Part shown: in pieces, positions 28,638 through 31,553 of the stretch
How the letters are laid out: each line of letters opens with the position of its first letter
Position numbering within the stretch: position 1 is the stretch's first letter
Assembly (NCBI RefSeq): GCF_011043545.1
Contig: NZ_JAAKGP010000002.1
Coordinates: forward strand, 248,001 to 312,000
Length of the DNA: 64,000 nucleotides
Direction: 5' to 3'
Origin: Rhodobacter sp. SGA-6-6
Lineage (GTDB): Bacteria > Pseudomonadota > Alphaproteobacteria > Rhodobacterales > Rhodobacteraceae
Program-made: the position numbers and the translations under genes
The notes under the pieces: model-generated
What the model was told of the DNA's origin: nothing
Database searches by the model: none
What the model saw: the letters and a program-made list of their open reading frames with translations, nothing else

Positions 28638-30149
28638 ATGGTCGCGCGCGCCTATACGGTGGCCTTCGAGGGGGTCGAGGCCCGCATGGTCGAGGTGCAG
28701 TGCTCCGTCACCACCGGCTCCGCCGGCTTCAGCCTGGTCGGCCTGCCCGACAAGGCGGTGTCCGAGGCGCGGGAAAGGGTGCGCTCCGCCCTCGCCGCGC
28801 TGTCCATCGCGCTGCCGCAGAAGCGGATCACCGTGAACCTCTCGCCCGCCGATCTGCCCAAGGAGGGTTCCCACTTCGACCTGCCGATCGCGCTGGCGCT
28901 GCTGGCGGAACTGGAGATCATCCCGAAGGACGAGGTCGAACATACCGTCGCCATGGGCGAGCTGTCGCTGGACGGCCGGCTGATGCCGGTCGCCGGCGCC
29001 CTGCCCGCCGCCATGGCCGCGGCCGAGGAGGACCGCGCGCTGCTCTGCCCCCGCGCCTGCGGGGCCGAGGCCGCCTGGGTCGGCGCCGCCGAGGTGCTGG
29101 CGGCCGACGGGCTGAACGCGGTGGTCCGCCACTACACCGGCCAGGCCGCTCTGCCCCCGGCGGCGGCGGGCGAGGTCACCGCCGGCCCGCCGGGCCGCGA
29201 TTTGCGCGAGGTGAAGGGCCAGGAACGCGCCAAGCGGGCGCTGGAGATCGCCGCCGCCGGGCGGCACCACCTGATGATGGTGGGCACGCCGGGGTCCGGC
29301 AAGTCGATGCTGGCCGCCCGCCTGCCCGGCATCCTGCCGCCTTTGACCGCGGCCGAGGCGCTGGAGACCTCGATGATCCATTCGCTGGCAGGGCTGCTTT
29401 CCGAAGGCGGCATCTCGCGCCAGCGCCCCTTCCGCGAGCCGCACCACACCGCCTCGATGGCCGCCATCGTCGGCGGCGGCAAGGGGGCGAAGCCGGGGGA
29501 GATTTCGCTGGCCCACAACGGCGTCCTGTTCATGGACGAATTCCCCGAATTCTCCCGCGCCGTGCTGGAGACCCTGCGCCAGCCGGTGGAGACCGGCGAG
29601 GTGATGATCGCCCGCGCCAATGCCCATATCCGCTATCCCTGCCGCTTCCTGCTGGTCGCCGCCGCCAATCCCTGCCGCTGCGGCTACCTGACCGACCCGG
29701 CCCGCGCCTGCGGCAAGGCGCCCCTCTGCGGCGAGGACTACCTCGGCCGCATCTCGGGGCCACTGATGGACCGCTTCGACCTGCGGGTCGAGGTGCCGCC
29801 GGTCGCCTTCACCGACCTCGACCTGCCCGCCTCCGGCGACACCTCCGCCGCCATCGCCGCCCGGGTGGCAACGGCGCGCGAGGTGCAGGCGGCACGCTTC
29901 CGCGATCACCCCGGCCTGCGGGTCAATGCCGACATGGAGGGCGGACTGCTGGAGGAAACCTCCACCCCCGATGCCGAAGGCAAGGCGCTGCTGGTGAAGG
30001 TGGCCGAACGGATGGGCCTCTCCGCCCGCGGCTACCACCGCGTCCTGCGCGTCGCCCGCACCATCGCCGACCTCGACGGCGCGCCGCAGGTCCGCCAGCC
30101 GCATGTGGCCGAGGCGATCGGCTACCGGCTGACGGTGAAGACCAACTGA
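28638..30149 (+). CDS. comM: YifB-family Mg-chelatase-like AAA+ ATPase (ComM)
   Basis: 503 aa hexameric helicase-like ATPase; in naturally competent bacteria ComM drives branch migration during DNA uptake recombination. Domains: N-terminal ChlI-like domain (SLVGLPDKAVSEARERV, GELSLDGRLMPV), AAA+ core with Walker A MMVGTPGSGKSMLA, Walker B GVLFMDEFPEF, sensor ANPCRCGY with a Cys cluster (ACGKAPLCGED), and the C-terminal domain (RGYHRVLRVARTIADL). ATG at 28638 follows GGAGG. The CRISPR-like array lies directly downstream. Confidence 0.93.
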   Translation: MVARAYTVAFEGVEARMVEVQCSVTTGSAGFSLVGLPDKAVSEARERVRSALAALSIALPQKRITVNLSPADLPKEGSHFDLPIALALLAELEIIPKDEVEHTVAMGELSLDGRLMPVAGALPAAMAAAEEDRALLCPRACGAEAAWVGAAEVLAADGLNAVVRHYTGQAALPPAAAGEVTAGPPGRDLREVKGQERAKRALEIAAAGRHHLMMVGTPGSGKSMLAARLPGILPPLTAAEALETSMIHSLAGLLSEGGISRQRPFREPHHTASMAAIVGGGKGAKPGEISLAHNGVLFMDEFPEFSRAVLETLRQPVETGEVMIARANAHIRYPCRFLLVAAANPCRCGYLTDPARACGKAPLCGEDYLGRISGPLMDRFDLRVEVPPVAFTDLDLPASGDTSAAIAARVATAREVQAARFRDHPGLRVNADMEGGLLEETSTPDAEGKALLVKVAERMGLSARGYHRVLRVARTIADLDGAPQVRQPHVAEAIGYRLTVKTN

Positions 30150-30184
30150 CCCCGCCTCGTCGATGCCTCAGGCACTCCTCGGCT
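30148..30184. repeat. CGCCTCGTCGA / ACTCCTCGGCT element after comM
   Basis: Immediately after the comM stop: GACCCCGCCTCGTCGA, a small dyad TGCCTCAGGCA, then CTCCTCGGCT. The same unit, with the dyad GCACTCCGTGC, follows the glnD stop at 36949-36987. It abuts the first, half-lost repeat of the CRISPR-like array. Confidence 0.5.
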
Positions 30185-30524
30185 CCCCGCGAGGGGCGAC
30201 ACATCCGCCCGTTCGGTTTCGGCGTCGGACAGTGTGTCTCGATCCGCGCTCACATGTGGAGAGAGACGGGAGCACGTCCATGACCACGACTGTCGACGGA
30301 CTGTTTCGATCCACACTCCCGCACGGGGAGCGACATTATGCGCTTGCGGCCTACAACGCCGGTCCCGGGTTTCGATCCGCGCTTCCGCGTGGAAGCGACA
30401 GCTGGGCGAAGCCCTGGCCGTGGCCTGCGACAAGTTTCGATCCGCGCTTCCGTGGGAAGCACCAGCCCGAATTACCCGCGCATCGTCGATGCCGTGTTTC
30501 GATCCGCGCTCCCGCGAGGAGAAG
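30182..30524 (-). CRISPR. Degenerate orphan CRISPR array, type I-C-like repeats
   Basis: Six related ~29-32-base units: a half repeat ending at 30200, then 30236-30267, 30303-30334, 30369-30399, 30434-30462 and 30496-30524. On the plus strand four begin exactly GTTTCGATCC and one GTCTCGATCC, continue with a short hairpin (for example GCTTCC-GCGT-GGAAGC) and end GCGAC in the better copies. The intervals are 35, 35, 34, 34 and 33 bases and unique. This matches type I-C repeats, which read GTCGC...GGATCGAAAC on the minus strand. No cas gene lies in the window. The region 30150-30542 holds nothing else but the comM 3' element. Repeats differ from each other, so the array is probably no longer acquiring spacers. 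Confidence 0.7.
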
Positions 30525-30542
30525 CCGAAGGCGCACGACGAG

Positions 30543-31484
30543 CTACCGCCGCTTCGCCTCGATCGCCTCCCAGATCCGCGCCGCCGCATTGGTGCCGTCG
30601 AAGCGCTCCAGCTCCTGGATCCCGGTCGGCGAGGTCACGTTGATCTCGGTCAGCCAGTCGCCGATCACGTCGATGCCGACGAAGACCTGCCCCTTCTCGC
30701 GCAAGGTGGGCCCGATGGCCCGGCAGATCTCCAGGTCGCGCTCGGTCAACCCCACCTTCTCGGGCCGTCCGCCGACATGCATGTTCGACCGGGTCTCTCC
30801 GGCCTGCGGCACCCTGTTGATGGCGCCAACGGGCTCGCCGTCCACAAGGATCACCCGCTTGTCGCCCCTGGCGACGGCGGGCAGGAACTTCTGCACGATC
30901 ATCGGCTCACGGCTCATGCTGGTGAACAGCTCATAGAGCGATGACAGGTTGCGGTCGTTCTCGTCCAGCCGGAACACCCCCGCGCCGCCGTTGCCATAGA
31001 GCGGCTTCAGGATGATGTCGCCGTGCCGCGCCTTGAAGGCCCGGATCGTCTCCAGGTCGCGGGCGATGGCGGTCGGCGGCGTCAGGTCGGGGAAGTTCAG
31101 CACCAGGAGCTTCTCGGGGAAGTTCCGCACCCAGAACGGATCGTTCACCACCAGCGTCTTCGGATGGATCATGTCGAGAAGATGGGTCGAGGTGATGTAG
31201 CCCATGTCGAAGGGCGGGTCCTGCCGCAGCCAGACCACGTCCATATCGGCCAAATCAACCTCGACCTCCGGCCCGTAGGAGACGTGATTCCCGGCCTCCC
31301 GCCGCAGCTCGATCCACTGGCCGCGCGCCACAACCCGCCCCTCGACGAAGGCCAGCCGGTCCGGCGTGTAGAAGAACAGCGCATGCCCGCGCGCCTGCGC
31401 CTCCAGCCCGATGCGGAAGGTCGAATCGGCATTGATGTTGACCGACCCGATCGGGTCCATCTGCAGGGCGACCTTCAGGGCCAT
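30543..31484 (-). CDS. gshB: Glutathione synthase
   Basis: 313 aa ATP-grasp enzyme joining gamma-glutamylcysteine and glycine. Typical N-terminus [16 protein letters not shown]-binding segments [29 protein letters not shown] and the metal/substrate region [16 protein letters not shown] at 31484 is preferred because AAGGAG is six bases upstream; the ATG at 31490 would sit on that ribosome site. Follows yraN on the same strand after 69 bp. Confidence 0.95.
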
Positions 31485-31553
31485 CGGCATCTCCTTCGCA
31501 AAGATGCCCCTTGATGGCGCAAGCCCGCCGGGGATGCAAACCCCGATCCGCCG

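Follow-up and report, generated by a model that had tools for sequence, protein, structure and literature searches.

Type I-C CRISPR repeats are about 32 nt long and consist of a hairpin and a handle of the GGATTGAAAC/GGATCGAAAC type. In the crRNAs of this type the repeat is divided into an 11-nt 5' handle and a 21-nt 3' handle, according to the relevant part of PMC5965380, and the repeat hairpin is recognised by Cas5d, now named Cas5c (PMC8406640, in extract). Arrays that lie far from cas genes (orphan arrays) are treated in the text available from PMC8616872 as a mark of degeneration, with some still functional. In terminal repeats the 3' end is frequently missing (PMC8047081, in extract). 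Degenerate type I repeats outside the main array are also a feature of CreTA, which, as outlined in PMC9458426, has mostly one or two repeats, is linked to a CRISPR-Cas locus, and combines a toxin RNA with a match to a promoter. Among the entries and extracts on orphan or degenerate arrays and on Gemmobacter CRISPR, none was recognised as the locus described here.

Layout of the array

In the window, by which we mean the whole 64-kb stretch of DNA analysed, GTTTCGATCC is present exactly at 30303, 30369, 30434 and 30496, and with one mismatch at 30236. The unit starts are thus spaced 67, 66, 65 and 62 bases apart, in agreement with the period of 62-67 given by the first-pass annotation. With one mismatch or fewer, about 4.0 sites would be expected per 64 kb on both strands, and the Poisson probability of five such units within 270 bases is about 1e-11; chance is excluded as the origin of the repeat. 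In the minus-strand reading, a full unit has a hairpin part, some 21 nt long, and after it an 11-nt end with GGATCGAAAC, and shares the 21+11-nt division of type I-C crRNAs described in PMC5965380. A sixth unit, R0, is truncated and lacks its 3' (handle) part, like the terminal repeats mentioned in PMC8047081. Six units with a conserved motif had been claimed; five carry the GTTTCGATCC-type motif, while R0 retains the hairpin part GGCTCCCCGCGAGGGGCGAC alone. A GCGAC end ascribed to the units is found in three of the six (R0, R2 and R3), and the intervals, said to be unique and 33-35 bases long, are unique but range from 31 to 35 nt.

The array occupies the gap between the stop of comM/yifB (30149) and that of gshB (30543-30545, minus strand), and NCBIfam/TIGR profile matches confirm both genes between which it had been reported to be squeezed. 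Its right end, placed 18 bases from the gshB stop, measures 15-18 bases from it. The features are listed below; the borders of R4 and R5 are uncertain by a few bases.

28701-30149, plus strand: comM/yifB, YifB-family Mg-chelatase-like AAA ATPase, 3' part as searched, converging on the array (TIGR00368)
30181-30200, minus strand: R0, truncated leader-distal unit, hairpin part without handle; 21-nt fold of -7.0 kcal/mol
30201-30235, minus strand: interval 0 (searched as 30202-30235), without credible source
30236-30267, minus strand: R1, handle with one mismatch, hairpin lost
30268-30302, minus strand: interval 1, without credible source
30303-30334, minus strand: R2, hairpin kept through G-U pairs, handle kept
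30335-30368, minus strand: interval 2, resembling a VirB1-like lytic transglycosylase gene (ALAAYNAGPG), plasmid matches
30369-30399, minus strand: R3, hairpin kept by paired changes (CUUCC/GGAAG), handle kept
30400-30433, minus strand: interval 3, without credible source
30434-30464, minus strand: R4, hairpin and handle kept, indels at the far end
30465-30495, minus strand: interval 4, without credible source
30496-30527, minus strand: R5, unit nearest gshB, retaining the handle and a weakened hairpin; no leader beyond
30543-31490, minus strand: gshB, glutathione synthase (NCBIfam NF003573, TIGR01380), candidate source of read-through

A coding, terminator or other non-CRISPR repeat might be suspected here, as one minus-strand ORF (30122-30589) crosses the array and a plus-strand terminator-like site overlaps R0. 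However, no Pfam family matches the ORF at E<=0.01, the period is not consistently divisible by three, and the best Rfam match scores 13.8 bits against a cut-off of 123, with no family near. Nor does the unit recur as a coding or terminator repeat at other loci, recurrence being what the first-pass annotation had said would count against an array: its core pattern is present at eight sites in the genome, four in this array, one in the main array discussed below and three scattered singles. Since the resident type I-C array also shares the handle, we give a non-CRISPR origin hardly any credence.

The resident type I-C system

The exact 10-mer handle is represented by 354 copies in the genome. 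Contig C16 carries an array with 230 of these, 229 of them identical over 32 nt, and contig C18 has 112 copies, of which 109 are identical, and besides these 112 at least one repeat with a changed last base. Each contig starts within an array. There is an 8-nt overlap between the two ends, and joining them yields a 34-nt spacer, which is the median length in the C16 array. On the strength of this overlap and of the joining spacer, C16 and C18 probably belong to a single array that has some 343 nearly uniform repeats and is interrupted by an insertion of about 1.4 kb (L031 1-15253 on C16 and L144 1-8842 on C18). All but one of the 229 C16 spacers are distinct (228/229). If the contigs join, this main array is long against the figures quoted from the review PMC8047081, where bacteria are said to have typically fewer than 50 spacers and Haliangium ochraceum 587.

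A search for type I-C cas genes elsewhere in the genome, as proposed in the first-pass annotation, gave profile matches to all seven families (Cas2, Cas1c, Cas4, Cas7/Csd2, Cas8c/Csd1, Cas5c and Cas3) beside the array on C16. The match to Cas5c extends over 143 of 203 profile positions, and Cas3 has an HD domain above the cut-off and a helicase core that scores 97.1 against a cut-off of 102.45. Judged by these matches, the genome appears to encode cognate cas genes away from the stranded array. The label "orphan" therefore holds locally and not genome-wide; the claim that no cas gene lies within the window stands for Cas1, the family searched, whose only match in the genome is on C16. The suggestion that the array is served by Cas proteins encoded elsewhere may be correct, since candidates for all seven families are found on that contig.

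Two further features of the main array were observed on C18. The interruption of about 1.4 kb near its leader-distal end (L144 7068-8501) has a changed repeat at its edge and contains a 131-aa ORF, which by its appearance we take to be a transposase-associated protein. Another ORF (L144 8789-9694), presumably related to IS110-type transposases, overlaps the leader-distal end.

The stranded array shares with the resident array the handle GGATCGAAAC, the layout of hairpin and handle, a period of about 66, unique intervals and the orientation. The type I-C-like assignment and the minus-strand reading made in the first-pass annotation are supported, because the handle is identical and the resident cas genes lie on the side that matches the right end. 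In contrast to the main array, the locus has five and a half unlike repeats, no leader and no adjoining cas gene. Like the orphan arrays in the available part of PMC8616872 it sits away from cas genes, but here the cognate genes are elsewhere in the same genome and the repeats are unlike. It resembles CreTA, as far as described in PMC9458426, in having degenerate type I repeats outside the main array, but differs in that it comprises five units, is unlinked, and gave no convincing promoter match with the four of five intervals searched.

Divergence of the repeats

Using the main-array repeat as a stand-in for the ancestor, we counted 31 differences over 160 positions of the five units in a gapped alignment, which bears out the description of the array as degenerate. 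These differences fall unevenly, with 29 in 105 positions of the hairpin part and 2 in 55 of the handle (binomial P 3e-4), or 30 in 110 and 1 in 50 for a 10-nt handle, although the comparison is biased because the units were detected by their handle and R0, which has none, was left out, and the gapped alignment of R3-R5 also influences the counts. The handle is exact in four of the five units, has one mismatch in the fifth and is absent from R0.

The type I-C hairpin folds fully in R2, R3 and R4, weakly in R5 and not at all in R1. In R3 and R4, CUUCC/GGAAG replaces the CUCCC/GGGAG of the main repeat; as the two share a change they are not independent. When the main hairpin was substituted at random (2000 trials, substitutions alone, at most six for R4 and R5), folds at least as stable arose in 11 percent of trials for R2, 3 for R3, 9 for R4, 19 for R5 and 90 for R1.

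These observations speak against regarding the array as a remnant: decay should strike all positions alike, yet the handle is far less altered than the hairpin part, and three of the five hairpins survive. Because the differences avoid the handle and those hairpins are kept, drift under constraint or residual use of the array has to be considered, and the pattern of differences hints at the former. The retained handles, the folds of R2-R4 with the paired changes in R3 and R4, and the presence of the cas families are in favour of an array that still works. Served in trans, with the resident Cas5c processing a transcript that follows gshB, it would hold a fixed memory in repeats too unlike to recombine; in the case of CreTA, ectopic repeats that are degenerate can function and withstand recombination (PMC9458426, in extract). 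Against this, R1 and R5 lack a full hairpin, the handle test is biased, and the randomisation figures make hairpin retention a weak argument. Taken with the transcription signals and intervals considered below, such an array seems unlikely to us.

Leader and transcription signals

The 207 bases beside the main array, a query that recovered itself at full length as a control, gave only two 9-nt matches at this locus (E 0.59), and the leader that had been placed at the right end is not borne out. Neither promoter-like sites nor minus-strand terminator-like sites were detected within 30000-30700. The lack of the former argues against a working array, the transcription of which is predicted only; that of the latter, between gshB and the array, is in its favour. 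As there is no such terminator, and the array immediately follows gshB and shares its strand, read-through could yield a precursor RNA. Cas5c encoded on C16 could then conceivably cut R2, R3 and R4, since this protein recognises the repeat hairpin (PMC8406640, in extract), and would release one or two crRNAs with the intervals that these units enclose, 2 and 3.

A plus-strand terminator-like site is located at 30194-30210, downstream of comM, where it overlaps R0. The array remnant may serve as the terminator of comM.

Possible sources of the intervals

The intervals were searched against phage and plasmid collections, a check suggested in the first-pass annotation, and interval 2 stands out from the other four, for which no credible source was obtained. 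In one frame it encodes the ALAAYNAGPG motif of lytic transglycosylases, and its plasmid matches include 28/28 bases in Rhodococcus (E 1e-5) and 29/31 in Pseudohalocynthiibacter (E 1e-4); over all 34 bases the best ungapped match is 29. At E<=1 it matched 194 plasmid records, 96 of them typed as conjugative, versus 3 phage records. Five plasmid records were inspected: one is from Rhodococcus, and in the four from Rhodobacterales the next annotated gene encodes a type IV secretion protein. Interval 2 thus resembles, in sequence, the VirB1-like lytic transglycosylase genes that belong to type IV secretion systems or conjugative elements, but as the motif is conserved it names a kind of gene and not one element. 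It has no exact protospacer and the related sites are followed by variable bases, so that no PAM was read. On contig C8 (L154 1-1968) an SLT-domain transglycosylase comes after a TraG-like P-loop ORF, the two forming a conjugation-type gene pair. Self-targeting of this VirB1-like gene by interval 2 was considered, and the match of 26/34 bases is not convincing.

For the remaining intervals the best matches were as follows: interval 0, plasmid E 0.02 (Haloarcula) and phage E 0.4; interval 1, no plasmid at E<=1 and one phage at E 0.4; interval 3, plasmid E 0.3 and phage E 0.03 (a cyanophage); interval 4, plasmid E 0.2 and no phage at E<=1. None of the five intervals has an exact protospacer in these collections, a further point against a working array, and one of the five shows a resemblance to a mobile-element gene, by a conserved motif. 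Matches to Microbacterium phage primase, obtained with the whole array as query, lie across the junction between interval 4 and R5 (E 0.1) and were taken as chance. Five scans of viral contigs with codon-degenerate interval cores were empty in four cases and gave a single match in the fifth (L145). None of the 229 spacers of C16 recurs among the intervals, no match between them exceeding 12 nt.

A regulatory mini-array, similar to CreTA (PMC9458426, as far as described there) or to Cas-regulating RNAs and with guides that partly match a host promoter, would likewise combine degenerate repeats with cognate Cas proteins in one genome. A genome-wide search with TTC plus seed for intervals 1-4, allowing two mismatches in 17 bases, gave 6, 1, 1 and 1 sites outside the array, none of them a convincing target; interval 2 read backwards as a control gave 4, and the sole site with one mismatch matches 18/31 bases overall. 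Outside the arrays, in the window, C16 and C18, no seed was better than the best shuffled guides. A regulatory role is accordingly very improbable in our judgement.

Distribution in relatives

The comM end was searched in 60 genomes, including the present one; 42 matched, and among the best 30 of these 42 loci the handle, in either type I-C form, is absent from all 29 that belong to other genomes. On the gshB side, 80 loci from named GTDB genomes were compared, the closest being from Gemmobacter, Tabrizicola and other Rhodobacterales, and the handle is found in two, both times outside the comM-gshB gap. Where comM and gshB converge less than 400 bases apart, 53 of 53 loci are without a handle between the genes (12 loci from the set of 29 and 41 from that of 80, sets that may overlap in species). 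Most of these gaps are shorter than 30 bases, versus 393 here.

The R3 form of the repeat is present in one of 394 genomes of the family, namely the present one, and this search revealed no intact ancestor of the array. A wider type I-C pattern occurs in 2 of 13 genomes of the genus, the second having one chance-like site. As the sites in relatives are empty, sequence comparison indicates that it was in this lineage that the array arrived or was left behind. The relatives examined accordingly offer no counterpart of the intervals, whose conservation alongside changing repeats was the other refuting condition named in the first-pass annotation. As no relative with an intact ancestor was found, descent from the resident type I-C system can be put forward only as a possibility.

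Origin and meaning of the array

The locus is type I-C-like by its handle, hairpin and layout, and we class it as a remnant and not as a working member of this group, since its repeats are not uniform and it has no leader. We consider it likely that it is a stranded type I-C remnant that no longer acquires spacers. The regular units of type I-C layout, the resident system, the missing leader, the 53 empty sites, the truncation of R0 and interval 2 all speak for this interpretation; to the points against it given above must be added that four of the five intervals are without a credible source. The array would once have taken up spacers as type I-C arrays do. With neither a leader nor adjoining cas genes at the site, acquisition would have ended, and the repeats presumably differ because copying from one leader-end repeat had stopped. 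That the array has lost its function is no less likely than use in trans.

It is also conceivable, though we think it quite improbable, that a frozen set of crRNAs has been functionally kept, riding on gshB transcription, cut in trans by Cas5c, and with repeats that drifted by pairing-preserving changes. Such drift would prevent the array from recombining with the main array of about 343 repeats, or from collapsing as that array can. Protection of a memory by repeat divergence is an idea proposed for the CreTA repeats (PMC9458426, in extract).

As a stranded remnant, the array would be an unremarkable vestige of earlier immunity, found at a new site. Had its repeats stayed crRNA-competent without a leader, it would show that a CRISPR memory can be preserved unchanged away from the growing array, shielded by the divergence of its repeats.
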